Shown here one piece after another: positions 1 to 32,366 of a stretch of 39,967 nt of DNA. Every line of letters begins with the position of its first letter. The first letter of the stretch is position 1. The stretch spans positions 1-39,967 of IMG/VR virus record IMGVR_UViG_3300025112_003722. One strand, 5' to 3'. The notes beneath the pieces were generated by a model that saw only the letters and a list, made by a program, of their open reading frames with translations, did not search any database and was not told the origin of the DNA. The position numbers and the translations under genes are program-made. Origin of the DNA: a virus.

Positions 1-594
1 TGTTTTGTTCTTAAACCCCCCATTATACCTGTCTAAATCCACATCCCAGAGGCTTGCTAAGAAATCAATACCAAAGTTCTTTTTATACTCCAAATCATTA
101 ATTTTTATATAATCTGCATTTTCTAAAAACATTCCAAAGCGTTTTTTAGTATCTACAAATACAGTTTCATTATTATCACAAAGATACTTAATATCTTCTT
201 CCGTCAAAAATCCCTTACAGTAATCTGAAATAACAAGTGCATCAAATATCAGTCCTTTAAACAAATTACTCTTAACTTGTAACAAAGTTTCTTCTTTAAT
301 TCTATCACAAACATCATTTTCATCAACTCGTAAAACCATTTGACTTGAACGATTATCTACATATCGAGTTTTAACTATTTCTTCTGTATTTGTTACTAAA
401 AATGCGTCAACTTCTAATTGTAATAAATTTGCTAATACATTCTTAGCCATTCCACCATTGGTAGTTTTATCAGTTGGTTGTATAATAGGTACAGGTGCTT
501 CAGGACTCATTCTAACTACTTCGCCATATACAAAAATGTCCTCACAACTATCTCCTACAACTAAAATAACTGGTGGTTCTTTTCTGTTATTCAC
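1..594 (-). CDS. HldE/RfaE-like PfkB-family sugar kinase (3' end outside window)
   Basis: Too long to be complete here: the frame runs from a GTG at 594 off the left edge (198 codons). The N-terminus reads ILVVGDSCEDIFVYG, then RMSPEAPVPII, then NGGMAKNVLANL, which follows the kinase domain of HldE (GDxxLDxYxxG, RISPEAPVPVV, PGGAANVA). VISDYCKGFLT matches the later LSDYAKG segment. Such kinases phosphorylate D-glycero-D-manno-heptose 7-phosphate at C1. A stretch of roughly 25 residues between the NGGMAKN and DYCKG motifs seems shorter than in HldE. The GTG start overlaps the stop of the next gene upstream (GTGA), so translation is probably coupled. The active-site base near the C-terminus is outside the window, so the substrate is uncertain; another PfkB sugar kinase is possible. 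Confidence 0.75.
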   Translation of the reverse strand, partial: MNNRKEPPVILVVGDSCEDIFVYGEVVRMSPEAPVPIIQPTDKTTNGGMAKNVLANLLQLEVDAFLVTNTEEIVKTRYVDNRSSQMVLRVDENDVCDRIKEETLLQVKSNLFKGLIFDALVISDYCKGFLTEEDIKYLCDNNETVFVDTKKRFGMFLENADYIKINDLEYKKNFGIDFLASLWDVDLDRYNGGFKNKT

Positions 595-1592
595 AAAACT
601 TCTCTCCAATACTCTAACAAATCATCACATATCTCTTCCAGACCTTTTGTTGGTTTCCACCCCGTAGCTTTTCTAAATTTAGAACTATCTGGTATTTGTA
701 ATGTTATATCTGTTGGTCTCATTCTATTTGGATCTGGTAATTTAATAAATGATTCAGGAGATTTTGACTTAGAAATTAACATATTTAACGCATCACCAAC
801 TGTGCACGTATAATCTCCACCAATATTATATGTTTCACCGTACTCACAATTATCAATCGCCAACCAATAAGCACGAACTGCATCTTCTATATGATTATAA
901 GTTCTAACCGAATCTAAATTACCGTGATATATTTCATACCAAGATCCCTCTGTACCAAAATCTTCTTTCTTTTCGTGCTGAACAATCTGATGTGCAAAAG
1001 AAGATAATGCAAATAATTTACCCCTTCGTTTTCCTTCGTGAGAAAACATACGAGTTATAATAACTTTTAACTCATATGCATTATGATAATATTGAGACAT
1101 TAAATCGTGTCCAACTTTTGATATAGAGTATGGATTTGCTGCCCTTATTGGATTAGTTTCTTTAATAGGAACTTCATCTTTATTTGGATTACCATAAACT
1201 TCTGAAGAAGATACGCTTACAATAGTAGGATCACAATATTCTGCATCTCTCGCGGTTTTTAATTCTTCCATTAAATTAGTAGTCCCAATAACATTCGTAG
1301 TCAATGTCATAACTGGCGTTAAAAAACTCGATTCTGGAAAACTCTGTGCTGCAAAATGATAAACTATATCAGGTTTAGATAATTCAATTGCACCATGTAT
1401 ACTACCTCTATCAGTTAAATCTGTTTCAATAAATAAAACCTGTGAGTTTCCATAAAGATGTTTAATATTAGCGTCATTACTTCTCCAGCGTCTTGTAGCA
1501 TATAATTTAACATCTGGAACATTTTCAAGAAGATAGTCAGCCATATGACTGCCTACAAATCCTGTTATTCCCGTCATTAAAACAGAAGTCAT
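591..1592 (-). CDS. gmd: GDP-mannose 4,6-dehydratase-like SDR enzyme
   Basis: A 333-residue extended short-chain dehydrogenase. The NAD(P)-binding loop TGITGFVGSH is at residues 7-16, SSSEVYG at 128-134 corresponds to the S/T-S-E-L-Y-G active site of GMD (the Glu is GMD-specific), and Y155-x3-K159 is the catalytic pair. GNLDSVRTYNHIEDAVRAYW resembles the GMD segment GNLDAxRDWGHxxDYVxAMW. GMD makes GDP-4-keto-6-deoxymannose; homologues also act on GDP-heptose. I chose the ATG at 1592, which has GGGAG 8 nt upstream and overlaps the preceding stop by one base (TAATG). An in-frame TTG at 1613 has no comparable site. It is followed by the heptose kinase-like gene. Confidence 0.8.
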   Translation of the reverse strand: MTSVLMTGITGFVGSHMADYLLENVPDVKLYATRRWRSNDANIKHLYGNSQVLFIETDLTDRGSIHGAIELSKPDIVYHFAAQSFPESSFLTPVMTLTTNVIGTTNLMEELKTARDAEYCDPTIVSVSSSEVYGNPNKDEVPIKETNPIRAANPYSISKVGHDLMSQYYHNAYELKVIITRMFSHEGKRRGKLFALSSFAHQIVQHEKKEDFGTEGSWYEIYHGNLDSVRTYNHIEDAVRAYWLAIDNCEYGETYNIGGDYTCTVGDALNMLISKSKSPESFIKLPDPNRMRPTDITLQIPDSSKFRKATGWKPTKGLEEICDDLLEYWREVL

Positions 1593-2554
1593 TACATATT
1601 CTCCCGTATCCAATCAACTGTTTTTTGAATACCATCTTCAAAAGAAACTTTTGGTTCATATCCTAAAATTCTTTTAGCTTTATCAGTATTTAATGCTCTA
1701 TATTGAATTGTTACTGGTTTGGTTGTATCATATTGTGCCTCAACGTTATGTCCAGTACACTTTAAAATCAACTCTACCGCCTCTCCAATAGTAACCAAAT
1801 TTCCACAACCTATATTAATTGGATCACATTCTGCATATTTTTCTACTACATCCAAACACGCTCTAGCCATATCTTCAGAATGTGTAAAATCTCTTACAAC
1901 ATCAGGATTTCCCCAAACTACATACGGGTCTTGTTTCTCTAATGCCCTTCTAATAAGTGCTGGTAATACGTGTCCTGTTTCATCACTAAAATCAGATTGA
2001 ATGCCATAAATATTTGCAGGTCTAACCATAGCAATTTTCATAAATCCCTTTCTATGATAAAACTGAGCTAAAATTTCTGTATACCTCTTCATCCAACCAA
2101 CTCCAAAATAAGTTTCATATGGATCACCATCATAAACTTCATCTTCTTTAATAGGATAACTTGCTGGTGGATATGTAGTTGCACTACTAACAAAGAAAAA
2201 TCGTTCAACTCCTGCTCTATAAGATTCTTCCATCAATGTTGAATTCATAATCAAATTAGGTGTTACGTGTTGTAGTGGGTCATCTGCCATAACACCTGCA
2301 CCAGATGTATTGGCAGAACAAACAAATACTATTTCCATTCCTTTAACTGCCCTTTTAACATCATCCAAATTCATAAAATCACATTTTACTGTTTCCAGAT
2401 CACCTGAAGGTATTGAACACACCCACGATGGTATTTCTCTGCCTCTGTATGTCCCTCTAACTTTAGCCCCTTCTTCAACAAGAAGTTTTGCAACTTGAGA
2501 TCCAACCAACCCACCTGCTCCTGCAACTAAAACTCTTTTTCCTAAATAAAACAT
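1592..2554 (-). CDS. NAD-dependent epimerase/reductase of the GDP-fucose synthase type
   Basis: A 320-residue SDR with nucleotide loop AGAGGLVGSQ (residues 11-20), FVSSATTYPP (121-130) and VRPANIYG (177-184). The middle and C-terminal part (VLPALIRRALE, VVWGNPDVVRDFTHSEDMARA, NIGCG) follows GDP-L-fucose synthase, which epimerises and reduces a GDP-4-keto-6-deoxy sugar. ATG at 2554 has GGAG 8 nt upstream. The usual YxxxK pair is not evident: Y149 and K156 are seven apart inside YFGVGWMKR. Given the ColD- and GMD-type genes beside it, a ColC-like role (GDP-colitose synthase, also of this family) is possible. The exact reaction is not established. Confidence 0.75.
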   Translation of the reverse strand: MFYLGKRVLVAGAGGLVGSQVAKLLVEEGAKVRGTYRGREIPSWVCSIPSGDLETVKCDFMNLDDVKRAVKGMEIVFVCSANTSGAGVMADDPLQHVTPNLIMNSTLMEESYRAGVERFFFVSSATTYPPASYPIKEDEVYDGDPYETYFGVGWMKRYTEILAQFYHRKGFMKIAMVRPANIYGIQSDFSDETGHVLPALIRRALEKQDPYVVWGNPDVVRDFTHSEDMARACLDVVEKYAECDPINIGCGNLVTIGEAVELILKCTGHNVEAQYDTTKPVTIQYRALNTDKAKRILGYEPKVSFEDGIQKTVDWIRENM

Positions 2555-2557
2555 TAC

Positions 2558-3478
2558 TTATTCTCCTTTGTGCCAATCTACTGCAGTATAAGGTTGTTCC
2601 TTATACCATTCTATTGTCCGTTTAATACCTTCTTCAAGACCTACTTGAGGTTTAAATCCATAACTTTCTGCGCGTTCCGTACTCATTAATCGTTTTCTAT
2701 CACCAGATGGTTTAGTATCATCAAAACGTAATCCAACATCAAAATATTCACATATTATAAATGCTAAATCTTTTATACTTATCTCAACCCCACTACCTAA
2801 ATTTACTGGTTCTGTAACTTCATGTTCTACCATATGTATCATACCACGAGCAACATCTTCAGAATAAATTAAATCTCTAATTGGTGTGCCATCTCCCCAC
2901 ACGTCTAATACTTCATCTTCGAAGGCCTTTTTTATCAATGACGGTACTACCATTGACCATTTACCAAAATTATCATTCGGGCCATAAACATTTGCTGGTC
3001 TTACTATAGAACATTTATTCCAATCATATTCTTTCATATACGCTTCAACATTCATTTCTCCAATTCGTTTTGCCCAACCAGCATACCAATCGTTTTCAGA
3101 TGGAAATGTTTTCCATACAGCATCTTCTACAAATACTTCTGCCGGGTGGTATACACCAACTGAACTTGTATATAAAAACCATTCTACATTTGCATTATAT
3201 GCAGCTTCTACCATATTGGCATTAAACTGAATCATTGGAACACTAAAAGACGCTGGTGCTGCCATGCATCTTTGAGGTGAGCCTTTTATGCCCGCCAAAT
3301 GAAACACAATGTCTTGTCCCTTACATGCCTTTTTACAAGAATCTCTATCCCTTAAATCTGTTGGTAAATCTGCAACTCTTACTGTTGCTCCTCTATCATG
3401 TAATAATTGAACAAGTTCACGGCCAATCATTCCTTTCCCACCAGTTACTAAAACTCGTTTTCCTTCTAAATTAATCAT
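2558..3478 (-). CDS. NAD-dependent epimerase/reductase, second GDP-fucose synthase-type paralogue
   Basis: A 306-residue SDR, related to the next gene downstream. It has VTGGKGMIG (residues 11-19), FLYTSSVGVY (101-110), VRPANVYGPNDNF, WGDGTPIRDLIYSEDVARG and the KPSGDRKRLMST segment typical of GDP-fucose synthases (KPDGTPRKLLD). The catalytic YxxxK is displaced: Y132 and K137 are separated by four residues in WYAGWAKR. The start ATG overlaps the previous stop as ATGA and has little Shine-Dalgarno signal, so it probably depends on re-initiation. The downstream paralogue follows 3 bp after its stop. One of the pair may be the epimerase/reductase for the ColD product; the other could work on a second sugar. 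Confidence 0.75.
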   Translation of the reverse strand: MINLEGKRVLVTGGKGMIGRELVQLLHDRGATVRVADLPTDLRDRDSCKKACKGQDIVFHLAGIKGSPQRCMAAPASFSVPMIQFNANMVEAAYNANVEWFLYTSSVGVYHPAEVFVEDAVWKTFPSENDWYAGWAKRIGEMNVEAYMKEYDWNKCSIVRPANVYGPNDNFGKWSMVVPSLIKKAFEDEVLDVWGDGTPIRDLIYSEDVARGMIHMVEHEVTEPVNLGSGVEISIKDLAFIICEYFDVGLRFDDTKPSGDRKRLMSTERAESYGFKPQVGLEEGIKRTIEWYKEQPYTAVDWHKGE

Positions 3479-4644
3479 ACTTTATTTAATTCCTCACACA
3501 ATTTCAAAATCTGTTCCCGTGTTAGCTCTGGATGATTTCCTATATAAAGACCAAAATCATGTATATGATTTACATTATCTAAATTATCTGCTACAAAATC
3601 ATATTTTTCCAAATAAGGTTGTCTGGCTTGATTTCCACCACCCGCAGTACCAACCCTATATTCAATTTTTTCTGTATCAAGTAGGATGCAACATTCATTT
3701 AACAATTCTGGATTTTTTTCTTGTAAAATTAAAGGAAGAGCAAAATTACTACTTCCATTTTTATAATAATCAACTTTAAATTTAATTGAATTCAAACAAT
3801 TTATCCATACATCAAAATTTTCACTTCTCTTTTCAGTATTATAATCTAACCTTTTCAATTGTTCTAATCCTAAAACTGCATTAAATTCTTGATTTCTCAT
3901 ATTATAACCAGGAACAGCAAATGTAAATAATGGATTTAATTCTGAATAGTTTTCTTTATACCAATATTGTTTTTCAGATGATGCCTCTCTTGTCATTCCA
4001 TGCGACCTAAATAATTTAGCATAATCATAAATATCTTCATCATTAGTACAAACCATACCACCTTCTACTGTTGTTATATGATGCCCAAAATAAAATGAAA
4101 AATTAGAAATATTTCCAAATGTACCAACTTTTCTACCTTTATGTGTGGCTCCGTGTGCTTCACAACAATCTTCGATCAAAAATAAATCCGTATCTTTACA
4201 ATACTTTACTAATTCATCACTTATTGCATTAAATCCTAATACATGAACAAGACATACACCAACTGTTTTATTTGTAACTGCTTCTTTTATATTTTCTAAA
4301 CTGATTGACATATTATCTAAACTAACATCAACAAATACTGGAGTAAATCCCAAATTAACTAATGGTGCTACATCTGAAACCCAACCCAATGGTGATACAA
4401 TAACTTCACCAAGGCCCTTTTCTTCTTTCATTATTGACGCCATAATATAATTTGCTGAAGCCCCAGAATTTACAAAAACACTATGTTTAACTCCTAACCA
4501 ATTTGACCACTCATTTTCAAATTGTTTTACATATTCACCTTGTGTAAATCTCGTATTAGGTTGACTTAACCAACTAATTAATTTTAATTTATCTTCAGCA
4601 CTTATACTATCGTTTATTAATTGCCACTTAAATTTATTTTTCAC
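3475..4644 (-). CDS. ColD/RfbH-type PLP-dependent sugar 3-dehydratase (DegT/StrS aminotransferase fold)
   Basis: A 389-residue DegT/DnrJ/EryC1/StrS protein: VNSGASANYI (PLP phosphate region, residues 58-67), LIEDCCEAHGA (156-166) and SFYFGHHITTVEGGM (183-197). Aminotransferases of this fold have the PLP lysine where H188 stands here. Histidine at this place is the hallmark of ColD (GDP-4-keto-6-deoxymannose 3-dehydratase) and of RfbH/E1, which remove the 3-hydroxyl instead of transaminating. The start is GTG with GGGGAG 9 nt upstream, inside the end of the upstream TPP-enzyme gene (11-nt overlap). With the GMD-like gene nearby, a GDP-linked substrate is more likely than CDP. Family is confident; substrate is inferred. 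Confidence 0.85.
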   Translation of the reverse strand: MKNKFKWQLINDSISAEDKLKLISWLSQPNTRFTQGEYVKQFENEWSNWLGVKHSVFVNSGASANYIMASIMKEEKGLGEVIVSPLGWVSDVAPLVNLGFTPVFVDVSLDNMSISLENIKEAVTNKTVGVCLVHVLGFNAISDELVKYCKDTDLFLIEDCCEAHGATHKGRKVGTFGNISNFSFYFGHHITTVEGGMVCTNDEDIYDYAKLFRSHGMTREASSEKQYWYKENYSELNPLFTFAVPGYNMRNQEFNAVLGLEQLKRLDYNTEKRSENFDVWINCLNSIKFKVDYYKNGSSNFALPLILQEKNPELLNECCILLDTEKIEYRVGTAGGGNQARQPYLEKYDFVADNLDNVNHIHDFGLYIGNHPELTREQILKLCEELNKV

Positions 4645-5170
4645 TATAGTAATCTCCCCACTCTATTACTAATGTTGATTTTGAATCCTCTCGTTCATAA
4701 GCATTTTTAAATGTAGGAAAAATTTCTTCCGGCTCGTTTAAAACTACAACCTCTACGTCAGTTAACATTTTACTAATACCTTCAGTAAAATCTTGTGTGT
4801 GTTGTGGGCCACCATCAAGTGGTTTTCTTGCACCAACAGCAGTACGAATAATAACTCGTGGAGACATTTTCTTTTTAGACATTTCTCTCATTTTATCTAA
4901 ATGATTTACTAACTGATTCATAGCTAAAATCAAAAAATTAAATCGTGGATATATTGTAATAGGAACATATCCTTCAAGTGCCAATCCTGTTGATATTCCC
5001 ATTTGTGTTTCTTCCATAACTGGAAGTTCAATTAACTTATCTTTATACACACTTTTTAATGTTCCTGAAATGGAATGTCCACTATATAATGTTGCCTGTC
5101 CTAAAAACAATGTATTTTTTTTTCTAGATAACCAATACATTGCACGTATCAACTCTTCTGTATACTTCAT
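4634..5170 (-). CDS. TPP-dependent enzyme, pyrimidine-binding half (transketolase C-section/E1-beta-like)
   Basis: A 178-residue protein that forms the second half of a split thiamine-diphosphate enzyme. ELPVMEETQMGISTGLALEG carries the conserved Glu that contacts the TPP pyrimidine (EExxxGxxxGxAxxG), followed by a segment like the E1-beta/transketolase Pyr domain (RVIIRTAVGARKPLDGGPQHTQ). It is shorter than E1-beta (about 325 residues) because the C-terminal transketolase domain is absent. Its ATG overlaps the stop of the PP-domain gene by one base (TAATG), so the two are almost certainly co-translated as a heteromer. Its place between RmlC-like and ColD-like genes suggests ketol or acyl transfer to a keto sugar, making a branched sugar; this is inference. 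Confidence 0.8.
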   Translation of the reverse strand: MKYTEELIRAMYWLSRKKNTLFLGQATLYSGHSISGTLKSVYKDKLIELPVMEETQMGISTGLALEGYVPITIYPRFNFLILAMNQLVNHLDKMREMSKKKMSPRVIIRTAVGARKPLDGGPQHTQDFTEGISKMLTDVEVVVLNEPEEIFPTFKNAYEREDSKSTLVIEWGDYYSEK

Positions 5171-5799
5171 TAAAAATTTACCCAGCTTCCTGTTCCATGA
5201 TGTGGATATATCATTTTATATTTATAATATACAACATCATTTGAAACTCTTACTGTATCCCCCCACGTTACATCTGTTGGAGTATGTACACTTAAATTAT
5301 TATCTTCTACCACAAACTGTAATGGTAATTTAAAATTCTTTGCATATTTGTAACTCTCACTAAATACTCCTGTATGAAATGTCATATCACCAATAAAACA
5401 CCAAACTCTTCTATCTGAATTTTTTCTTTTTAATCCCATAGATACTCCAAGTGCTAACGGAATTATACCTCCAACTATTGCAGAAGAATAAAAATTCGGA
5501 TTTATGTAATTAGTACTCATACTCTCACCACATATAATATCATCCATTAATTCTCTATGTGGATAACCATGAAGTAATGCGTGGTAATGATTTCTCCAAG
5601 AACTGAAAACCCAATCATCCTTATGTACATACTGAAAAATTTCTATAAGTTGTTTTTCATTTCCTTTTGATAAATGAATAGGTGCCAGTATTTCTCCAGA
5701 ATCGTATGATTCTTTAATCTCTGTTTCAAAATCAATAAGTTCTTGTTCGGTTATAGTAACTTCTCTAACTTTTTTTAAATAATCTGGTATATAAACCAT
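5170..5799 (-). CDS. TPP-dependent enzyme, diphosphate-binding half (transketolase N-section/E1-alpha-like)
   Basis: A 209-residue protein with the TPP/Mg2+ signature: GDMTFHTGVFSE, then about 20 residues later VEDNN (GDG-x(n)-NN motif, with Met as third residue). SSWRNHYHALLHGYP resembles the E1-alpha R-G-H-x-H substrate region, and IVGGIIPLALGVSMGLK the helix before the TPP site. It is about 100 residues shorter than pyruvate dehydrogenase E1-alpha. ATG at 5799 overlaps the cupin gene stop (TAATG) with GAGAG upstream. It pairs with the next gene to make the complete active site. No lipoyl or E2 gene is near, which argues against a 2-oxoacid dehydrogenase complex and for a stand-alone ketol transferase. 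Confidence 0.8.
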   Translation of the reverse strand: MVYIPDYLKKVREVTITEQELIDFETEIKESYDSGEILAPIHLSKGNEKQLIEIFQYVHKDDWVFSSWRNHYHALLHGYPHRELMDDIICGESMSTNYINPNFYSSAIVGGIIPLALGVSMGLKRKNSDRRVWCFIGDMTFHTGVFSESYKYAKNFKLPLQFVVEDNNLSVHTPTDVTWGDTVRVSNDVVYYKYKMIYPHHGTGSWVNF

Positions 5800-6290
5800 T
5801 ATCTATCTCTCTTTTGTAATATTGGGTCATTAATTGGCCACTCTACACCAATTCGTGGGTCATCCCATTTCAAAGTAAATTGTTTATCTACGTCTGGATA
5901 ATCTCCAATATAGGCCCATTTGTAATAAAAAACACAAGATTCACTTAATACTAAATGTGCATTTCCAAATCCCGGTGGTAATAACACACATTTTCTACAA
6001 TTATCATTTAATATTGTCCAATCCCATTTCAAATAATCTGGACTATCTGGTCTATTATCAACGACCACTAAATAAACTTCTCCATAAACACAACTTATCA
6101 ATTTCCAAGATTTATAATCTCCGTGAATTCCTCTTAAAACATTTTGTCTTGAAGTAGAAAATTTGTCGTGATTAAACATTAATTGATGTTTAAATTTTTT
6201 TTCTTCCCATACTGTCCACAAATCACCTCTATAATCAGTATAAATGTCAGGAATGAAAGTTTCTACCAACTTAAAAATTTTATTCTGCAC
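5799..6290 (-). CDS. RmlC-like dTDP-sugar 3,5-epimerase family cupin
   Basis: A 163-residue cupin resembling dTDP-4-dehydrorhamnose 3,5-epimerases: DYRGDLWTVWEE, then FSTSRQNVLRGIHGDYKSWKLI (the GxxRGxH catalytic His and following basic residue), GEVYLVVVDNRPDSPDY, and LLPPGFGNAHLVLS (normally PxGFAHGF). Members act at C3 and/or C5 of 4-keto-6-deoxy nucleotide sugars. The His of the second motif is shifted (GNAH), so single-position or altered specificity is possible. The start is GTG with GGAG 6 nt upstream, 11 nt inside the end of the glycosyltransferase gene. No RmlA, RmlB or RmlD is in the window, so the substrate could carry GDP rather than dTDP. Confidence 0.78.
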   Translation of the reverse strand: MQNKIFKLVETFIPDIYTDYRGDLWTVWEEKKFKHQLMFNHDKFSTSRQNVLRGIHGDYKSWKLISCVYGEVYLVVVDNRPDSPDYLKWDWTILNDNCRKCVLLPPGFGNAHLVLSESCVFYYKWAYIGDYPDVDKQFTLKWDDPRIGVEWPINDPILQKRDR

Positions 6291-7056
6291 TTAATTCTCC
6301 GTGAAAATATTCATATGTTTTTTTCATCCAATAGTATGTTAGTTTATCTTCTGTATTATTTGGAATGGCGTTATATTGATATACCCACCCTATTTTAGTA
6401 AATAACAAATCATCTGCCAATATTTCTTTGCGATACATATCATTCATATTAAACTCGTATGGTAAAAATTTAGTATCTATATCATTTAGATATAACATAA
6501 AATTTAATGGAGTTTGTTCTGTTCCAGTATGAAATGTTTCTTCCATCCACTTTAATTGATCTTTGCGTTCGTGATAAAAATCAGTCATTGACTTTGCAAA
6601 ATCTTTATGACTTTTATTTACAATCCAAAACCCACTATCAAAATATCTATGTAGTGGTATCATTTCACCGTTAAAAATATACTTAGAATAATTCTCTAAA
6701 CTTCTACATACCCAATCCCAACTACCATCAAAAGAAACAACAGTAAACTTATCTTCTGACATTTCAAAGAAATTTGGAGCATCTGGATGAATTATAGTAT
6801 CTGCATCAACTGAAAGTATTTGGTCATATTCTATACCATTTGACTCCATTAAATCAAATATATACCATCGTTGCCAACAAATTCCCATTTCCGTGTGTGG
6901 TAAAAGTTCTTCGGTTAAAACAAATAACTTACAATCGTTTTTCTCACACCACCGCTTCCAACTGGCTACTGCATATTTATATGGTTCTTTTCGTGAACTA
7001 GAAAATCTACCTTGTCCACTTAAATCTACATTCATCATAAAGACTACATTTTTCAT
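6280..7056 (-). CDS. Glycosyltransferase, GT8-like/GT-A fold
   Basis: A 258-residue protein with a GT-A fold signature: YDQILSVDADTIIHPDAP contains a DxD motif (DAD) that binds metal and sugar nucleotide, followed by FFEMSEDKF and a later TGTEQTPLNF segment that resembles GT8-type acceptor regions. ATG at 7056 has GGAG 5 nt upstream. It is a paralogue of the N-terminal half of the fusion protein at 8055-9425: both share the EYDQI..VD, NxFEM, RYFDSG/KYFSSG and GTEQTPLN motifs. It sits between an SDR epimerase and a cupin, so it probably transfers the sugar made by this cluster. Donor and acceptor are unknown. Confidence 0.72.
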   Translation of the reverse strand: MKNVVFMMNVDLSGQGRFSSSRKEPYKYAVASWKRWCEKNDCKLFVLTEELLPHTEMGICWQRWYIFDLMESNGIEYDQILSVDADTIIHPDAPNFFEMSEDKFTVVSFDGSWDWVCRSLENYSKYIFNGEMIPLHRYFDSGFWIVNKSHKDFAKSMTDFYHERKDQLKWMEETFHTGTEQTPLNFMLYLNDIDTKFLPYEFNMNDMYRKEILADDLLFTKIGWVYQYNAIPNNTEDKLTYYWMKKTYEYFHGELSAE

Positions 7057-7058
7057 CT

Positions 7059-7988
7059 CTACTCCGAAGTATAAACTGATTCGTAATAATCTATAGTTGG
7101 TTTAAGTCCAGCTTCTAAATCCCATTGTAATTCATAATCCAATAGCTCCTTTAAAAGTGTTGGATTAAGTTTAATTTCGGTGTCTGGATATTCACCCGGT
7201 CTCATATCAACAAATTCTCTCTCAACTGGCCTTCCCCAAACTTTCTCTGTAATATCTATAATTTCATTAACAGAATAATTTTTATTTCTTCCCACGTGAA
7301 TAACCTCGCCACCCAGATCCTTATCACTAATTAATGCTCTATAAAAAGACTCTACAACATCATCAACATAAATATATTCTGATTTCTGTTCACCACTACC
7401 ATATATTTTAAAAGAATTGCCTTTTAATGTTTCCATTAAAATAGTAGGTATAATTTTCTGATAATTAAATGGAGCTTCTTTAGGCCCGTCCAACCACCTT
7501 TCTCTAGCACCATATATGTTACCTAATTTTAAGCTAACTGTTTCCACCCCATATTCTTTGGAAAATAATTGACCAAACTTTTCTACAGCCGCCTTTGTTA
7601 TTTTATATGGATTCAACCAAGTAACATCTGGAGTAGTTGGAATACACACCCTCTTAACTCCCCATTCTTTACAATATTTCAAAAGTTTTACTGTACCTAC
7701 AACATTTGTTTCTGCAACCTGTTCTACATCATAAGTTGTAATTGTTTCACTTGTACCCAAAACTGCTGCAAGATGAACAACTCTATCCATTCCTTTAATT
7801 GAGTTACTCAACAAACCATCTTCTAAAACTGTACCTCTGCTAAAACTAAAATTTGGATTATGAGAATGTATTTGTGTATTTTCACTATTCCATAAATCCA
7901 AAACAGAAACTTGATGTTCTTCTTTTAATAATCTATCTACTATATGACTGCCAATAAAACCTGATCCACCTGTAACCAATACTTTCAT
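7059..7988 (-). CDS. NAD-dependent epimerase/dehydratase (GalE/RmlB-like SDR)
   Basis: A 309-residue extended SDR with a textbook N-terminal Rossmann loop (VTGGSGFIGSHIVDRLL, residues 4-20), HLAAVLG, canonical catalytic YKITK (Y-x3-K), LGNIYGARERW and YIYVDDVVESFYRAL. GalE-type enzymes epimerise C4 of nucleotide sugars; related dehydratases and decarboxylases share the fold. There is no GMD- or RmlB-specific Glu after the active-site Ser/Thr region (TTPDVTW), so an epimerase or reductase role is more likely than 4,6-dehydration. ATG at 7988 has AAAGGAG 5 nt upstream. Unlike the two SDRs at 1592-3478, its active site looks intact. Confidence 0.78.
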   Translation of the reverse strand: MKVLVTGGSGFIGSHIVDRLLKEEHQVSVLDLWNSENTQIHSHNPNFSFSRGTVLEDGLLSNSIKGMDRVVHLAAVLGTSETITTYDVEQVAETNVVGTVKLLKYCKEWGVKRVCIPTTPDVTWLNPYKITKAAVEKFGQLFSKEYGVETVSLKLGNIYGARERWLDGPKEAPFNYQKIIPTILMETLKGNSFKIYGSGEQKSEYIYVDDVVESFYRALISDKDLGGEVIHVGRNKNYSVNEIIDITEKVWGRPVEREFVDMRPGEYPDTEIKLNPTLLKELLDYELQWDLEAGLKPTIDYYESVYTSE

Positions 7989-8054: not shown

Positions 8055-9425
8055 TTATTTTGATGTGCAAATAACACCTTCTCTATCGTCAAATGATAAT
8101 CCATGTACACAAATAAAACCATCATCTTCCCCAATAAATCTATCAATATTTATTTTTTTATCAGATACTTTAGCATTTATAGCCTTTTTTATATCTTGAT
8201 TTGGATTACCATAATCGTCCATAATAAGAATAGGAGAATCTAAATTAGATAAACATCTATCTATATCATATGAAACTAACTGTGAAGTATGTCCTGCATC
8301 AACAACTACTACATCAATATCTTTAGGAAAATCCCATTCTAATTTATATACATCTTTTAATAAAAATTCAATATTATTTTTATCTTCACATAATTTTTTT
8401 GCTTTATCTATATTTTCTTGAGAATTATCTATCGCATAAACTTTACCAAAAACTTCACTATATATTTTAGTTCCATCTCCTTGACAACATCCAAGTTCTA
8501 ATACTTTCATTTCTTTATATTTTTTATCAGAAAAATATTTAAGTATATCTTCTTTAAATTTTCTAGATGTAGTATATTTTGCAGTATCTTTATGTGATAC
8601 TTCATCTAATATATTTTTTACTTTTTTATTTGAAGATACATAATTATCCTTTACTATATCCCAAGTTTGTTTTATTATCTGAGTCCGTTGATTCTTAGGT
8701 AGTCCACTAAAACCCCACACATGACCATATTTAATAAAAAATGGTGTTTTGTCTTCATTCAATTGCCAATTGTAATTAAACATTTCTTTTCTATGTATAT
8801 GTGTTAACTTATAAGTAAATGGTAAATCTAAATTCATCTCAACATTATTCATTTGCATATGATAATTCAATGGAGTTTGTTCTGTGCCCTTACAAACACT
8901 TTTATCTTGTAACTCTACAAAAGCATCAACATTATTATAATATAATTTTTTAAAAGATTGAAAAATACCTTTATGTTCTTCATTAAAAACAATTAAGCCT
9001 GAACTAAAATACTTTTGTATATCAAAGTCATATCCACCAAAAAAATCCTTATAACCAACTATACTTTTATATATCCAACCTAAGTTATCCACATCTCTCC
9101 ATGCAGTAAACTTTCTATCCGTCATTTCAAAAATATTTGGTGTATTCCATTTAATTATATTCATACCATCTACTAAATAAATCTGATCATATTCGATTTC
9201 TGCTTCATCTAAAATATCAAAACAAAATATAGCTTTTTGCCAATTAATTCTAAATTTAGTTAAGTCCTCTTCAACAGGTATTTCAAATGGAAAGAATATC
9301 ACATCATGTTTCTTACACCAATACTCCCAAGATTTTCTAGTAATGTCTATCCATTCCCAACCGCCATATTTTTTAGAATATTTTTCATTCTTTACCCCAA
9401 CCCAAAATACTACATTTTTTTTCAT
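8055..9425 (-). CDS. Fusion: GT-A glycosyltransferase domain plus SAM-dependent methyltransferase
   Basis: A 456-residue two-domain protein. Residues 1 to about 265 match the glycosyltransferase at 6280-7056, but the DxD position reads VDGMN instead of VDADT, losing the second Asp. Residues about 300-456 form a class I SAM methyltransferase: KVLELGCCQGDGTKIYSE (motif I), VYAIDNSQENIDKAK (motif II acidic residue), and DIDVVVVDAGHTS (motif IV region). The methyltransferase could cap or decorate a sugar after transfer. ATG at 9425 overlaps the deacetylase stop (ATGA). Because the metal-binding motif is altered, the transferase half may use a different mechanism or act only in binding. Acceptor unknown. 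Confidence 0.72.
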   Translation of the reverse strand: MKKNVVFWVGVKNEKYSKKYGGWEWIDITRKSWEYWCKKHDVIFFPFEIPVEEDLTKFRINWQKAIFCFDILDEAEIEYDQIYLVDGMNIIKWNTPNIFEMTDRKFTAWRDVDNLGWIYKSIVGYKDFFGGYDFDIQKYFSSGLIVFNEEHKGIFQSFKKLYYNNVDAFVELQDKSVCKGTEQTPLNYHMQMNNVEMNLDLPFTYKLTHIHRKEMFNYNWQLNEDKTPFFIKYGHVWGFSGLPKNQRTQIIKQTWDIVKDNYVSSNKKVKNILDEVSHKDTAKYTTSRKFKEDILKYFSDKKYKEMKVLELGCCQGDGTKIYSEVFGKVYAIDNSQENIDKAKKLCEDKNNIEFLLKDVYKLEWDFPKDIDVVVVDAGHTSQLVSYDIDRCLSNLDSPILIMDDYGNPNQDIKKAINAKVSDKKINIDRFIGEDDGFICVHGLSFDDREGVICTSK

Positions 9426-10051
9426 TGATATAATGACCTCACTTTAAAAAATTCAGCATTATCAAGATTTCGTTTACTTGTTCGATAATTGGAATGATAT
9501 AAATTAAATACATTATCAGTAAAATATGGTTTATCCAATTGAGATTGAAATGAATTAAATAAATTTTTTCTTTTTCTTTCTATCTCATCACCTATGTTTA
9601 CATATAAATTTGGCACCCAACCAATTTTAGTACTCGGTGTCATATATTCAACTACCCCCATTTTTTTACTTCGAGTCAATGAGTTGGCTATCCTATTTAT
9701 TTTTCTGTGGTCTTGGTGTGTATCCTCATCTGGTGGAGCTAATATTAAGTCATATTCATATAAATTAAACATATCTTCCATTTTTTTTATAAAAGTATCA
9801 TATTCTATATCTCGTATAAACTCTTCCCCCACGAAAATCAATTCAACATTCTTATATGACGACCAAAACTCTTTAACTTCACCTAACCTATCTAACTCCT
9901 TTGAACTATACTTACCGCCTGAGGAAATATTATAAACATGAAATTGAGTATCATAATATTTTGAAACAGTAGCTGACATAGCATATTCACAATCATCAGG
10001 ATGTGGAGATAAACAAGCAGCATAATAAGAATTTAAAAATCTTGTTAACAT
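9422..10051 (-). CDS. PIG-L/LmbE-family N-deacetylase
   Basis: A 209-residue member of the PIG-L zinc deacetylases. SPHPDDCEYAMS (residues 15-26) is the H-P-D-D-x-E motif that supplies zinc ligands and the catalytic Asp, and DTHQDHRKINRIANSL carries the second H-x-D-H motif. The family removes N-acetyl groups from sugar amines (GlcNAc-PI, GlcNAc-malate, antibiotics, surface sugars). ATG at 10051 has GGAGG 6 nt upstream, the strongest ribosome site in this part, within the end of the ATP-grasp gene. Adjacent ATP-grasp ligase suggests deacetylation followed by attachment of another acyl group to the freed amine; this is inference. Confidence 0.85.
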   Translation of the reverse strand: MLTRFLNSYYAACLSPHPDDCEYAMSATVSKYYDTQFHVYNISSGGKYSSKELDRLGEVKEFWSSYKNVELIFVGEEFIRDIEYDTFIKKMEDMFNLYEYDLILAPPDEDTHQDHRKINRIANSLTRSKKMGVVEYMTPSTKIGWVPNLYVNIGDEIERKRKNLFNSFQSQLDKPYFTDNVFNLYHSNYRTSKRNLDNAEFFKVRSLYQ

Positions 10052-10968
10052 ACTACCTCCTGAAAATACCTTAATATAGTTACTTCTTTTATTTCAGGTA
10101 TATTAATTTCTTTACCTTCAACAATATCTAATATTATTTTTACAATATCAACTCCTGCTAATTTAGCAAAAACTGTTCCTCCGCCAAATCTAGGATTTAT
10201 TTCAATGAACTTTAAATTACCACTAAAATCTTCTTTCATTTGTAAACAAACTGAACCCTTTAATTTTAAAAATTGTACAATGTCCTGACACTGCCGTTCA
10301 ATAAATTCATCTTTTTTTACCCTACCCTTTGTAGATATTCCTGCTTTAGTTTGTAATCGTTTTCTTGGTATAACTACTAATGGATTAGAATTCATATCAC
10401 TTAAAACATCAATCGTATACTCTTGACCTGGAAGATATTCTTGATATATATATTCATACTTGTCTGTCTCTAAACAGTTAATAGTTGCTTGATCTTTACA
10501 CACAAAAACCCCCTTACTTCCAGCAGAATGTCTTCTTGGTTTAGCAAATAATGGAAACCCGATTTCAGTATAATCCATAGATGTTTTTGGTAAAAGAAAA
10601 TTATCTTTACATTTGTCATAAAATCTCATTTTATCTGAACAGTCCATGATGGCATCATAATCTGACATAAACAACATCACACCCAATTCATCAAATATCT
10701 TTTTATTCTTTGAAATAATAATTATCTCATTTGAACTTGTTGGTAATATTAAATCAATCTTTTCCTCTTTGACTATCTTCACCAACTCATCAATATAATG
10801 TTCATCAAATGCTTCAGGTACGATATAATATTCATCAGATAAATAAAATCCAGCAGATAAAGAATTACAATCAACTGAAATAATTTTACCATCAAAATCA
10901 ATATCCCTTAATGATTTTATAACACCATGACAAGCAGAACCACCAGCACTCAACAACAATATGTTCAT
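10045..10968 (-). CDS. ATP-grasp ligase (CarB-like/amine-carboxylate ligase type)
   Basis: A 307-residue ATP-grasp protein with a pre-ATP-grasp Rossmann-like domain (NILLLSAGGSACHGVIKSL, residues 2-20), the phosphate-binding strand FPLFAKPRRHSAGSKGV, the hinge YIYQEYLPGQEYTIDV, and the metal-binding end LKFIEINPRFGGGT (E-x-N-x-R). Members join a carboxylate to an amine through an acyl phosphate. ATG at 10968 overlaps the HAD gene stop (ATGA). In polysaccharide clusters such enzymes attach amino acids or other acids to amino sugars; its position directly before a PIG-L deacetylase fits that role but does not prove it. Confidence 0.8.
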   Translation of the reverse strand: MNILLLSAGGSACHGVIKSLRDIDFDGKIISVDCNSLSAGFYLSDEYYIVPEAFDEHYIDELVKIVKEEKIDLILPTSSNEIIIISKNKKIFDELGVMLFMSDYDAIMDCSDKMRFYDKCKDNFLLPKTSMDYTEIGFPLFAKPRRHSAGSKGVFVCKDQATINCLETDKYEYIYQEYLPGQEYTIDVLSDMNSNPLVVIPRKRLQTKAGISTKGRVKKDEFIERQCQDIVQFLKLKGSVCLQMKEDFSGNLKFIEINPRFGGGTVFAKLAGVDIVKIILDIVEGKEINIPEIKEVTILRYFQEVVC

Positions 10969-11267
10969 AACTCCCCAATCCTTTTTGTTTTATCACATAT
11001 TAATAAATCATAATTTGGTTTTTTACCAACGCTCAAATCGTGGTATTTACATTCCCATTTTTCTAATTGTTCTTTTGTTAATGTGTAATAGTCTACCCTA
11101 GATACTGTACCCCTACCGGTCCAATATGTTATGCGATTACCCTCATCATATAACTTATTTATCTTATCTATATTATCATAATTGGGTATAGCATTTTTAT
11201 ATAACCTATCCACACCGCCGTAAAAACATATGGTTTCATCTATGTCAACGAATATATTCATCTTCAT
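10965..11267 (-). CDS. Small HAD-superfamily phosphatase
   Basis: A 100-residue protein that keeps all HAD motifs in a cap-less form: FVDIDETICF (DxDxT nucleophile, motif I), TYWTGRG (motif II Thr), and GKKPNYDLLICDK (motif III Lys and motif IV Asp). It is of the compact type often found in capsule and polysaccharide clusters. An alternative ATG at 11261 (start MNIFVD) is equally possible, since neither has a clear ribosome-binding site. It is separate from the gene upstream by 22 bp and overlaps the ATP-grasp gene. It is not recognisably GmhB, the heptose bisphosphate phosphatase, though it could dephosphorylate a sugar phosphate in the same route. Confidence 0.72.
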   Translation of the reverse strand: MKMNIFVDIDETICFYGGVDRLYKNAIPNYDNIDKINKLYDEGNRITYWTGRGTVSRVDYYTLTKEQLEKWECKYHDLSVGKKPNYDLLICDKTKRIGEL

Positions 11268-11289
11268 ACCAATTTAAATAATTTTTCAT

Positions 11290-12033
11290 TTAGTATATAG
11301 CTAGAAACTCATTTGGAAATGATTTAATCTCATTCATTGCTTCTAACAGTTCCCTATTTCTCTCATCTATTAAAGTTACAAAATTTTTAAGATTATTATA
11401 ACCCTGTCGTGTCCAAGAATACGGATGTATTAACAATTGTAATTTTCTAATTTTATCCAAATTTAATTCCAATGGATGTCCATATTTCCATTGATGATTT
11501 GAATCAGATACATAATTAACTCTCAAAGTTTTTGGCTTCTTTCCTTCAAAAAAATGAAAAAACTTCATTCCATAACAATTTATTTTATTATCAAGCTCAA
11601 CATATTGTTTCAAATATTCATGTTTTGGAATATGATAAGAAAACCTATCTATATCAAACTGATAATAATTTTCAAGTGTTACTATATCTTTCAAAATATA
11701 TTCTTTTAAATCATCCAATGCCATACCGGTTGGTGGATTGGGGTGTGTTCCTATCTTGTGTCCAAGAGATTTTATTTCTGTCATCATTTTTATACTTCTA
11801 TTAGAAATAGCACTGTAAATATCTGACCTCAACTGAATCAAATATGTAGATTTGACTCCAAGACTATCTGCCTCAAATCTAGCTAAATCTAATGCCCTAT
11901 CAATTGAATATTCTATATCATGTCGTAACAAACAAAATTTATTTGTATCCACAGTAACTTCCGAAAAATCAAGAATAGGGAAATTGAGTTTTAACAAATC
12001 AATTAAATTTTTATATTCTGCATATGAAAACAT
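11290..12033 (-). CDS. Polysaccharide deacetylase-like protein (distant NodB/CE4 fold)
   Basis: A 247-residue protein whose central part resembles NodB-type deacetylases: FCLLRHDIEYSIDRALDLAR (the H-D metal pair), GVKSTYLIQLRSDIYS (the G-x-x-ATYF strand), and MMTEIKSLGHKIGTHPNP (GHEIGxH, metal His). YGHPLELN and LLIHPYSW supply later His residues. CE4 enzymes remove N- or O-acetyl groups from polysaccharides using a divalent metal. The second catalytic Asp of the usual D-D pair is replaced (RHDIE), as in the atypical group common in surface-polysaccharide clusters. ATG at 12033 is one base past the previous stop. Substrate is not determinable. Confidence 0.65.
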   Translation of the reverse strand: MFSYAEYKNLIDLLKLNFPILDFSEVTVDTNKFCLLRHDIEYSIDRALDLARFEADSLGVKSTYLIQLRSDIYSAISNRSIKMMTEIKSLGHKIGTHPNPPTGMALDDLKEYILKDIVTLENYYQFDIDRFSYHIPKHEYLKQYVELDNKINCYGMKFFHFFEGKKPKTLRVNYVSDSNHQWKYGHPLELNLDKIRKLQLLIHPYSWTRQGYNNLKNFVTLIDERNRELLEAMNEIKSFPNEFLAIY

Positions 12034-29375: not shown

Positions 29376-30368
29376 CTACACACAAATGGTTTCAATCAAC
29401 TTTTCAATAACAAGATAAGGATCACAATTCGCTGATGGTCTTCTATCTTCTAAATAACCACATCCATCTTTATCTACTTGCCACGGAATACGAATAGATG
29501 CTCCTCTGTCTGAAACTCCCCAACTAAATGTATCTATAGCTTGTGTTTCGTGTAGTCCTGTTAATCGTCTTTCATTTCCCTCACCATATACTTTCATATG
29601 TTCTTCGTGTTTATATGACAGAAGTAAACAAGCTTCTTCTATGTCTTGTCTACCACCATATTCTCTCATATCTTTTGTAGAAAAATTACAATGACATCCC
29701 GCCCCATTCCAATCACCCTCTGCTGGTTTTGGATCTAATGAAACTGTCAATTCATATTTCTCACAAATTCTTTCCAGTAACCAACGAGCAACCCACAAAT
29801 CATCACTCATATGAACTGAGCCACCAGCACCAATCTGATATTCCCATTGTCCTAACATCACTTCTGCATTAGTTCCACTAATACTAATTCCTGCTTGAAT
29901 ACAGGCATCAGTATGTTCTTTCATAATATTTTCACCAATGTTTCTACCACAATAGTAATCACCTTGAGGCGCTGGTTCATCAGATGCTGGCCAACCTAAT
30001 GGTCTATTTGTTTCATTATCATACAAAGTATATTCTTGTTCAAATCCTACCCATTCATCAATATTATTCCCCACAACTGTTAATGTTTCTTCTAACACTC
30101 TTCTTGTATTTGTAGTATGTGGTGTATCATCTACATTCCACACTTCACATAAAACTATTGAACTATTTTCTTCTAATGGATTAGGATATACTCTTACTGG
30201 TTTCAATACACAATCAGAATTACTACCTTCTGCTTGTTCTGTTGAACTGCCATCAAACCCCCAAATAGGTGCCACTGCATCTTTATCAAACTCTTTTACA
30301 ACTTTAGTTTTACTTCTAATATGTGTTGGTGTACACCCATCCAACCATAGATATTCTAACTTATGCAT
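29376..30368 (-). CDS. glnA: Glutamine synthetase, type II (eukaryotic-like)
   Basis: A 330-residue GSII enzyme that makes glutamine from glutamate, ammonia and ATP. Visible motifs are WGFDGSSTEQAEGSNSD (36-52), FEQEYTL (109-115, metal Glu), QGDYYCGRN (135-143), GQWEYQIG (173-180), NGAGCHCNFSTKDMR (221-235, ATP site), NERRLTGLHET (265-275), DRGASIRIP and YLEDRRPSANCDPY (305-318). The length is close to GSII (about 350), and no adenylylation site is expected in this type. AAGGAG lies 6 nt before ATG. It is between the ribonucleotide reductase and DNA polymerase genes, so it probably supports nucleotide synthesis, which consumes glutamine nitrogen. Confidence 0.93.
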   Translation of the reverse strand: MHKLEYLWLDGCTPTHIRSKTKVVKEFDKDAVAPIWGFDGSSTEQAEGSNSDCVLKPVRVYPNPLEENSSIVLCEVWNVDDTPHTTNTRRVLEETLTVVGNNIDEWVGFEQEYTLYDNETNRPLGWPASDEPAPQGDYYCGRNIGENIMKEHTDACIQAGISISGTNAEVMLGQWEYQIGAGGSVHMSDDLWVARWLLERICEKYELTVSLDPKPAEGDWNGAGCHCNFSTKDMREYGGRQDIEEACLLLSYKHEEHMKVYGEGNERRLTGLHETQAIDTFSWGVSDRGASIRIPWQVDKDGCGYLEDRRPSANCDPYLVIEKLIETICV

Positions 30369-30380
30369 AATAAACTCCTT

Positions 30381-32366
30381 TTATATAGTTTCGGGTATAT
30401 CACAGATATCGTTGTTACAAAACTTATCTATTTCAGCTTCTTCCCCTTCAACTCCAACAAAACTTAAATATTTTAAATTACTAACCATACTTTTATATTT
30501 ATTTTTAGTTATTTTTTCATACGGCATTTGACGATATGCCCCAGTATCGTATCTTGGTAAAAGAGAGATCCCCTTTAATCTATATTGAAAATAATTTAAA
30601 ACGTATGGTAATTCATCTGCTTCTGTTTCGGGACAAAAAGTAGCAGTACAACTAACTTGATTATCAGCCCAATGTCGTTGTAAGAACGCGGCCAAACTGA
30701 ATTGTTCCCAAATCGAAAGTTCAGCCGCTGTTCTTATACCCTCTCCTACATCAACTGGCACCTCTACTACAACTGTAGTATCTTCTGAACCGAATGCTGG
30801 TTCTATTGTATACCCTGCCTTTTTTAACGGCTTTAATAACTCTGAATGTTTTGATAATCTCATTCTTCTTATATAAAATCTACTTTCTGGATAGTGTAAT
30901 CCTGGAGTTGCCCCTGCCAACAATGAAACCGTTCCACTTGGTTTTACTGATGTAGTTTTAATTGAACGAGGTACAGCTAACCAATCAGAATACATACAAT
31001 CCCAGCTTTGAATTATATCATACCCTGTTTCTAACCAAGACCTCAATTCTTCTAACCCACGATTAGTAATAAATTGTGCTACACCACTTACACTACAACC
31101 AATCCTACGATTTCTCAACATAACTCTATTGGTATCACTCCAATGAGTTTTTCCAAGTGTTACCGTTTTAGCATACAAATACGCATATTTTAATGTCCTA
31201 AGATAATCCTCTAATGAATCATGATTGTTTGGAAACGTTTCTACTAAACAACACAACTCATATGATTCTAATGTTTGTTCTAAACAAGGATTTCCACCAG
31301 CTGCTCTGTGGTCTTTATTATCTCTACCGTTTTTTAATCTACTATAACCTCTCATATTTTCTAACCAAGCTAAACCAGGCTCACCATTATCTACAATTCT
31401 TTTACATACATCAGTATAATCCATTCCAAGTTCTGCATATATTGAGTTGTTTGAAGTCCATCCGTATTGTTCTCTATGTGGATTTGCTTTATAATTTTTT
31501 AAATTCAAATATTCATCATCAAATGGATTTCCAAATACTATTTCTGCTGTTCTACGAACATTCCCTGCTACTACACATTTTCCTATAAGGTTCATAATAT
31601 CTACAATTGTAGTAACAGTAATTGGCTCACCTGTATTTTTATCTAAAACTTCTCTTATCTCTTTATGTATTTCTTTTAATGGTTCGTGTCCACTTGATAC
31701 TCCACCAAAACCTTTGATTGGTTCTCCTGCATCTCTAATTTGATTGTAATCAAACTCTATTAATGGCATTCCATGAAAGTAACTTTCTAACAATAACCTC
31801 AAAGATTCTACCCAACCCTCCCGAGTATCAGGTATCATATAAATTTCTTCATTTCTATCTCTGTTAACACCTTTAACTATAATTTCACCAGCCCCTTTTG
31901 TATCAAATCCAACACCAACACCTAACATACTAGCATCCATCAAAAAACAAAATGGTTTTGAATAATCATCTTTAATAGTAGATGTGGATACAAATGCACA
32001 ATTATTAAGTGCTGCATATAACCCCTTTTCTTCTGTTATAGAAGTTCCCATGGCCCAAAGACCTCTGCCGGGTGGTAAAAATTTCATATAAAAAATACGG
32101 TCATACATTTCTTGTGCTGACCGTTGTGCTTGCCAAGGATTCCAACCAAGGCCATGAGAATCAATCCAATGCTTTTGCATTGAATAAGTACCTTCTACAA
32201 CCCGTTTAATAGTTTCCCACCATCTTTCATTTTTTCCATCTTCTTTAATACGAGAATAAGTTCTCATATAAACTAATTCACCTAAACCATTAAAACCAAA
32301 TGGTGGTCTTTTTCTTTTATATTTATCTATAAAATTTTCAGATAAAACAAATTTTTCAATTGACAA
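30381..32366 (-). CDS. Adenosylcobalamin-dependent (class II) ribonucleotide reductase, monomeric RTPR type
   Basis: A 661-residue reductase that makes deoxyribonucleotides, using a cobalamin-generated thiyl radical. NNCAFVST (C123) and ELCCLVETFPN (C372) supply the redox pair; NPCLE (C361, E363) carries the thiyl-forming Cys. C361 and C372 are 11 apart, exactly as C408 and C419 in the Lactobacillus leichmannii enzyme. The C-terminal CNNDIC is the C-x4-C reductant relay. The start is TTG with AAGGAG 8 nt upstream, an in-frame start that fits the spacing. It depends on host B12. It is followed 12 bp later by glutamine synthetase. Confidence 0.93.
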   Translation of the reverse strand: MSIEKFVLSENFIDKYKRKRPPFGFNGLGELVYMRTYSRIKEDGKNERWWETIKRVVEGTYSMQKHWIDSHGLGWNPWQAQRSAQEMYDRIFYMKFLPPGRGLWAMGTSITEEKGLYAALNNCAFVSTSTIKDDYSKPFCFLMDASMLGVGVGFDTKGAGEIIVKGVNRDRNEEIYMIPDTREGWVESLRLLLESYFHGMPLIEFDYNQIRDAGEPIKGFGGVSSGHEPLKEIHKEIREVLDKNTGEPITVTTIVDIMNLIGKCVVAGNVRRTAEIVFGNPFDDEYLNLKNYKANPHREQYGWTSNNSIYAELGMDYTDVCKRIVDNGEPGLAWLENMRGYSRLKNGRDNKDHRAAGGNPCLEQTLESYELCCLVETFPNNHDSLEDYLRTLKYAYLYAKTVTLGKTHWSDTNRVMLRNRRIGCSVSGVAQFITNRGLEELRSWLETGYDIIQSWDCMYSDWLAVPRSIKTTSVKPSGTVSLLAGATPGLHYPESRFYIRRMRLSKHSELLKPLKKAGYTIEPAFGSEDTTVVVEVPVDVGEGIRTAAELSIWEQFSLAAFLQRHWADNQVSCTATFCPETEADELPYVLNYFQYRLKGISLLPRYDTGAYRQMPYEKITKNKYKSMVSNLKYLSFVGVEGEEAEIDKFCNNDICDIPETI

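Follow-up and report, generated by a model that had tools for sequence, protein, structure and literature searches.

The window analysed here is the whole of a linear virus record of 39,967 bases, IMGVR_UViG_3300025112_003722, and the subject of this report is a minus-strand cluster of sugar genes in it that includes two short thiamine pyrophosphate (TPP) enzyme genes, designated TPPa and TPPb. The record belongs to a T4-like phage, as judged from open reading frames (ORFs) for a family B DNA polymerase, clamp-loader-like and RecA-like proteins and ribonucleotide reductase; the nearest named phage by DNA polymerase is Microcystis phage Mel-JY01 (47 % identity), while HTVC008M and Synechococcus phages reach about 34 %. 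An original prediction, made from the sequence of the window alone, had described six consecutive genes as a candidate pathway to a branched 3,6-dideoxy nucleotide sugar. All six ORFs were found on the minus strand, overlapping or separated by at most 4 nt as in a single operon, and their predicted classes agree with those assigned with Pfam and NCBIfam (E1_dh, Transket_pyr, DegT_DnrJ_EryC1/RfbH, GDP-fucose synthase twice, and GDP_Man_Dehyd). The unit is larger than was predicted, as an RmlC-like gene upstream and a heptose-kinase-like gene downstream are members of the set in many relatives.

Gene order and content

The cluster is transcribed in the order RmlC-like, TPPa, TPPb, ColD-like, SDR1, SDR2, GMD-like and kinase-like, where SDR denotes a short-chain dehydrogenase/reductase. 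The RmlC-like epimerase gene (5799-6290) falls by profile into the branch of the Campylobacter jejuni GDP-heptose C3/C5-epimerases. TPPa (5170-5799, E1_dh) encodes a short E1-alpha-like PP domain of 209 aa with a GDM...EDN TPP/Mg motif, and TPPb (4634-5170, Transket_pyr) a short E1-beta-like Pyr domain of 178 aa. The next gene (3475-4644; DegT_DnrJ_EryC1, RfbH as best model) encodes a candidate ColD/DdhC-type 3-dehydratase using pyridoxal phosphate (PLP), in its pyridoxamine phosphate (PMP) form, with His188 as catalytic residue. Profile, structural model and residue counts give SDR1 (2558-3478) the fold of GDP-fucose synthase without the canonical catalytic Tyr, while SDR2 (1592-2554; profile and residue counts) resembles GDP-fucose synthase and GDP-mannose-3,5-epimerase and has a non-canonical Tyr/Lys pair. 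A GDP-heptose 4,6-dehydratase-like gene of the GMD family follows (591-1613, likely ATG start at 1592, GDP_Man_Dehyd), and the last gene (1-609) ends at the contig edge and encodes an HldE-I-like (PfkB) sugar kinase, with a match to TIGR02198 of 88 bits that is under the cut-off. A kinase-like gene adjoins GMD in many relatives.

The TPP pair and its exchange beside SDR1

In the PDB search, the best match of TPPa was the E1-alpha subunit of pyruvate dehydrogenase (73 bits, versus 24 bits for a split transketolase), and that of TPPb was pyruvate dehydrogenase E1-beta (65 bits, aligned to E1-beta residues 6-176 only), with no transketolase match to TPPb at E<=0.01 and only a weak match to DXS. 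The Mg/TPP residues of TPPa are conserved (D138 in 105/105 and N167 in 104/105 relatives), Met takes the third place of the motif in 95 of the 105 (GDM for GDG), and the catalytic E53 and H124 of TPPb are kept in all 96 relatives. Pfam reports Transket_pyr alone in the 178 aa of TPPb, where a C-terminal Transketolase_C domain was not found, and both subunits are without the C-terminal parts of E1. Classed by sequence, the pair is a shortened E1 of the 2-oxoacid dehydrogenase type and not a transketolase. On the profile scores, the transketolase-like ketol transferase of the original prediction was rejected; that prediction had itself named a 2-oxoacid dehydrogenase affiliation of the pair as a result that would refute it. 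Truncation of the subunits by sequencing was rejected as well, since many loci have short subunits and the two domains are also those of the fused homologues.

An E1 affiliation weighs against a ketol transferase and not against branching, an idea that is partly supported, because E1-type pairs are documented as pyruvate-using sugar branchers (PMC12247030, PMC4425429). The pairs AviB1/AviB2, Pau11/Pau12 and KbDH-alpha/beta (alphaKADH2) create C2 branches at C3 or C4, as proposed from genetics for the first two and in vitro, with pyruvate as donor, for the third (PMC12247030, PMC4425429, PMC4753412). By class and gene context they are like the phage pair, an E1-alpha/beta-like pair accompanying deoxy-keto-sugar genes; they differ in that alphaKADH2 pairs act on antibiotic sugars whereas the phage pair stands in a GDP-heptose-like gene set, and in that Pau11/Pau12 measure 325 and 345 aa against 209 and 178 aa for the phage pair, which has no C-terminal domain. 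By analogy with these precedents for acetyl branches, the donor of the TPP pair is likely to be a 2-oxo acid such as pyruvate. Sugar branching by another TPP superfamily is represented by YerE, and the yersiniose A pathway (YerE with DdhC) has in common with the phage set a 3-deoxygenation of the ColD/DdhC type and TPP-dependent branching at a 4-ketone, for a sugar of surface polysaccharide. YerE differs in being a single-chain flavoprotein of the decarboxylase/acetolactate-synthase superfamily that acts on a CDP-hexose, and this superfamily is seen here only in relatives such as locus L122. The phage family phrog_34187, from the cultured cyanophages S-SM2 and P-TIM68, likewise consists of short PP and Pyr domains; these are fused, lie beside a Zn-alcohol dehydrogenase and have no assigned function.

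The gene set recurs beyond chance, with relatives in hundreds of viral contigs and a repeated order. A TPPa relative is encoded by at least 567 viral contigs, and others occur in S-SM2, P-TIM68, a 735-kb phage, and 18 contigs of cellular or single-cell genomes, a few of which may belong to phages. In the neighbourhood of TPPa, 84 viral loci, which include duplicates of one contig and many of which end at contig edges, yielded relatives of TPPb (79), SDR1 (77), SDR2 (70), RmlC (69), GMD (50), ColD (44) and the kinase (27). The order RmlC-TPPa-TPPb-ColD-SDR1-SDR2-GMD(-kinase) is repeated in unrelated viral contigs and partly in bacterial genomes. The predicted place of the TPP enzyme as an integral part of the sugar set is supported, and a set of this composition fits a pathway to a C-branched deoxy sugar. 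In a SAR11 single-cell contig (L010), relatives of the TPP pair, SDR1, SDR2, RmlC and GMD lie with an HddA-like kinase near a GroEL gene, so the set is present in a chromosome too, and in a locus from Verrucomicrobiae (L017) HddC-like, HddA-like, TPPa, TPPb and ColD genes are consecutive. Both kinases match the HddA model best, and for the L017 nucleotidyltransferase the HddC model ranks second, all scores being below the curated cut-offs. That the phage genes are functionless relics or decaying host genes is very improbable: the TPP subunits are short and the SDR active sites non-canonical, but lengths are alike and active-site residues are kept in viral loci as well as in several genomes of bacteria and archaea. 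Two further families accompany the clusters. A 135-aa family without a Pfam or NCBIfam match (L084:6939-7346 and relatives) lies inside the sugar clusters of 41 clustered loci, and in several related contigs an ORF resembling purine nucleoside phosphorylase by sequence (L003:11910-12701) comes right after TPPb and is followed by a cytidylyltransferase-like ORF.

A second retrieval of loci, seeded with SDR1, GMD and ColD, avoided the bias of TPPa seeding, and the idea that the linkage is a mere effect of that seeding was rejected, as the re-seeding instead revealed replacement TPP genes. TPPa is apparently absent from 15 of 80 SDR1 loci, most of which hold another TPP gene set; in some the replacement is an E1 pair with longer subunits, about 277 and 303 aa (L142), in others an acetolactate-synthase-superfamily enzyme of 617 aa adjoining PanB (L122, L123). 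After removal of near-identical SDR1 loci, 41 non-redundant virus loci remained, and a TPP gene, sought within about 10 kb, was present in 40, as the short pair in 30, the long E1 pair in 9 and the acetolactate-synthase type only in 1. The order RmlC-TPPa-TPPb-ColD-SDR1-SDR2-GMD was found in 10 loci and RmlC-E1a-E1b-ColD-SDR1-SDR2-GMD in 4, the TPP genes being the sole difference among the tracked core families. This exchange is the strongest new evidence of the analysis. Functionalised donors, 4-hydroxy-2-oxo acids among them, are favoured by ErwE, a member of the YerE group, and PanB produces an acid of this class; by this analogy, the acetolactate-synthase type next to PanB fits carboligation with an enzyme-dependent donor, as a correlation and not a proof.

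The TPP pair might also act on some other small molecule, as a small decarboxylase of 2-oxoacids or an acyl-anion enzyme, for example to provide an acyl group that decorates the finished sugar, and might merely have been co-transferred. Membership of the E1 family, related cassettes without ColD or GMD, and SDR1 loci in which the TPP genes lie several kb away all accord with this, but the generally close linkage to SDR1 and the occupation of the same slot by other TPP types make it unlikely. No E2 or E3 gene was recognised among the scanned operon genes, which also speaks against it, host partners being possible.

Two observations concern the replacement genes. The longer E1-beta (L142:7947-8858) has Asp at the catalytic Glu position in 24/24 distinct sequences, with the His kept, and a B12-binding radical S-adenosylmethionine protein of ~680 aa lies beside SDR1 or between SDR1 and SDR2 (L122:7509-9554, L262:2485-4521). 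As the examined stretch of L262 holds no TPP gene, branching might also come about by radical C-alkylation.

Identity of the sugar

The profile of the GMD-like family scored 354 bits with the C. jejuni GDP-manno-heptose 4,6-dehydratase (7us5), versus 239 bits with RMD and 168 bits with GMD; the protein of the window shares 37 % identity with 7us5, and the YxxxK and S-E residues are present in 53/53 relatives. The RmlC-like profile scored 210 bits with the C. jejuni GDP-heptose epimerases versus 123 bits with dTDP-RmlC, and its catalytic His56 is present in 74/74. Among solved structures the ColD-like protein matched ColD (GDP, 227 bits) and DdhC (CDP, 194 bits) ahead of the next at 155 bits, both being nearer than aminotransferases. 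The predicted replacement of the PLP lysine by His was confirmed, as H188 aligns with H188 of ColD and His is found in 46/46 relatives, and a C3 dehydratase of the ColD/DdhC type is the supported prediction for this protein.

Enzymes of these classes produce GDP-3,6-dideoxy-heptoses in C. jejuni HS:5 and HS:11, by way of a 4,6-dehydratase, a PLP-dependent C3-dehydratase, a C5-epimerase and a C4-reductase in HS:5 (PMC10440746, PMC10680097). The phage set parallels the first three steps of the HS:5 pathway, and GDP-heptose 4,6-dehydratase, PLP C3-dehydratase, RmlC-type epimerase and an Fcl-fold SDR are common to both; the C. jejuni pathway differs in that it is described without a TPP enzyme and serves a bacterial capsule and not a phage. 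Since both the dehydratase and the epimerase match GDP-manno-heptose enzymes best, a heptose is probably the sugar rather than a mannose, and the intermediate is likelier to be a GDP-6-deoxy- or 3,6-dideoxy-4-keto-heptose.

The original prediction had instead begun at GDP-mannose, with GMD and then ColD giving GDP-3,6-dideoxy-4-keto-mannose as in the colitose route, ahead of TPP branching. Its pairing of a GMD-family 4,6-dehydratase and a ColD-type 3-dehydratase stands, and among solved structures ColD matches the DegT protein best, with GDP-fucose synthase the nearest family of both SDRs; its choice of mannose is doubtful, as the GDP-heptose enzymes are ahead of GMD by 186 bits and of dTDP-RmlC by 87 bits, and HddA/HddC-like genes lie near bacterial relatives. 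The colitose pathway (GMD, ColD, ColC) has a GMD-family dehydratase and ColD in common with the phage set and differs in that it concerns a hexose and has neither an RmlC-type epimerase nor a TPP enzyme. Colitose synthesis is not known to require an RmlC-type epimerase.

For a heptose, the TPP pair could act earlier, as a precursor maker that gives sedoheptulose-7-phosphate or another ketose in a transketolase-like step. The heptose pathway begins at sedoheptulose-7-phosphate (PMC10680097), and split transketolase genes occur in the region of some relatives (L208, L010). This is also unlikely, if slightly less so than the mannose start, as the pair scores as E1, L010 has a split transketolase separately from its short pair, and an exchange for an acetolactate-synthase type with PanB is ill-suited to the supply of a ketose. 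SDR1 was not found where split transketolase pairs join ColD, GMD and RmlC (L208 and others).

GDP-fucose synthase is the best family match of SDR1 and SDR2, by profile only for SDR2. The AlphaFold2 model of SDR1 (mean predicted local distance difference test score, pLDDT, 85.7) gave Z 33.9 to E. coli GDP-fucose synthase and Z about 31 to 33 to the C. jejuni GDP-heptose reductases. Four positions ahead of the catalytic Lys, all 78 SDR1 relatives (78/78) carry Ala, Pro or Gly, and the residue preceding this position is Tyr in only 28; SDR2 has Val..Lys in 43 or Tyr..Arg in 27 and never Tyr..Lys at the canonical spacing. The predicted GDP-fucose-synthase type thus holds for family and fold and not for the catalytic YxxxK, whose absence makes the assumed reductase role doubtful, and that role was not adopted for either protein. 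The Tyr may be displaced, and SDR1 and SDR2 may not be ordinary reductases. The candidates for the C4-reductase are SDR1 and SDR2, with the fold and without YxxxK, and SDR3 (7059-7988, minus strand), an extended SDR with a canonical YxxxK in its sequence (NPYKITK) that could be a reductase or epimerase. A small canonical SDR lies between SDR1 and SDR2 in some relatives (L142).

Proposed pathway and its meaning

In the proposed pathway, the GMD-like enzyme would first 4,6-dehydrate a GDP-heptose, the ColD-like enzyme would take off the C3 hydroxyl using PMP and glutamate, and the RmlC-like enzyme would epimerise next to the 4-keto group. A TPPa/TPPb heteromer, as a pared-down E1, would then decarboxylate a 2-oxo acid, most likely pyruvate, and join the acyl anion to the C4 ketone, giving a tertiary alcohol with an acetyl-type branch, and SDR1, SDR2 and SDR3 would reduce or isomerise the branch or the ring to complete it. 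A phage glycosyltransferase would put the sugar on a host surface glycan or the virion. We infer substrate, donor, step order and target from gene content, from catalytic residues conserved from the dehydratase through the TPP steps, and from recurrence and exchange of the genes; the HddA-like (L010, L017) and HddC-like (L017) GDP-heptose genes near the bacterial TPP pairs are counted in favour. Branching of the sugar nucleotide, or of its glycoside, has an even chance or slightly better; for avilamycin and paulomycin, the branching is proposed to come after glycosylation. That the product of the operon is a 4-keto-heptose linked to GDP, 6-deoxy and here 3,6-dideoxy, which is subsequently branched, falls a little short of even, a joint estimate that allows for dependence between heptose and branching.

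Several findings weigh against this pathway. The kinase of the phage, like the nucleotidyltransferase found in relatives, is of the HldE type, normally of ADP-heptose synthesis, at odds with a GDP sugar, so that the nucleotide carrier may not be GDP. The canonical YxxxK pair is absent from SDR1 and SDR2, and the TPP pair is far shorter than the described sugar-branching E1 pairs. ColD and GMD accompany only part of the 84 TPPa loci, partly owing to contig ends; the pair is thus not shown to depend on either substrate step, and no ColD relative was found in the examined stretch around the fused TPP gene of S-SM2 and P-TIM68.

A wider reading, held more tentatively, is that phages and hosts share an interchangeable carboligase slot on a core GDP-(3),6-(di)deoxy-4-keto-heptose pathway, with different TPP enzymes swapped in and viruses making combinatorial, undescribed C-branched heptoses. 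The variants would be the mini E1 pair, the long E1 pair, a YerE/acetohydroxyacid synthase type with a PanB-made donor, and perhaps split transketolase; as a sugar-branching TPP enzyme, the mini E1 pair would be uncommonly small.

The candidate user of the sugar is a GT8-type glycosyltransferase identified by family scan (6280-7056, minus strand); the N-terminus of a further minus-strand product (8055-9425), which has a fused methyltransferase domain, resembles it. Upstream of the operon (9422-12033, minus strand), PIG-L deacetylase, PylC-like ATP-grasp, small HAD-like and deacetylase-like ORFs suggest further sugar or amino-acid decoration. Elsewhere in the window, a GlnII-type glutamine synthetase gene (29376-30368, minus strand; 432.6 bits, curated cut-off 500) adjoins a ribonucleotide-reductase-like ORF (30381-32366).

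No published description of the gene set was found in the open-access full-text literature searched. Each chemical step has a precedent; the literature searched did not show a TPP carboligase combined with enzymes of the GDP-heptose type, an E1 pair this small, TPP types exchanged in one slot, or the presence of such a combination in phages. If the pathway is as proposed, viruses encode the synthesis of branched higher sugars, so far known from bacterial O-antigens and antibiotics, and vary its chemistry by swapping a single carboligase gene. Very small TPP enzymes for producing tertiary alcohols would then be available, and phrog_34187, a phage family without an assigned role, would gain a possible function. 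One published proposal is that the LPS-related genes of T4-like pelagiphages alter the host O-chain against co-infection (PMC7029224), by analogy a plausible purpose of the present set. Why aquatic phages carry large sugar clusters, whether for host-surface change against co-infection or for glycosylated virions, would become testable, and the recurrence in many aquatic virus fragments hints at phage redesign of cell- or virion-surface sugars.

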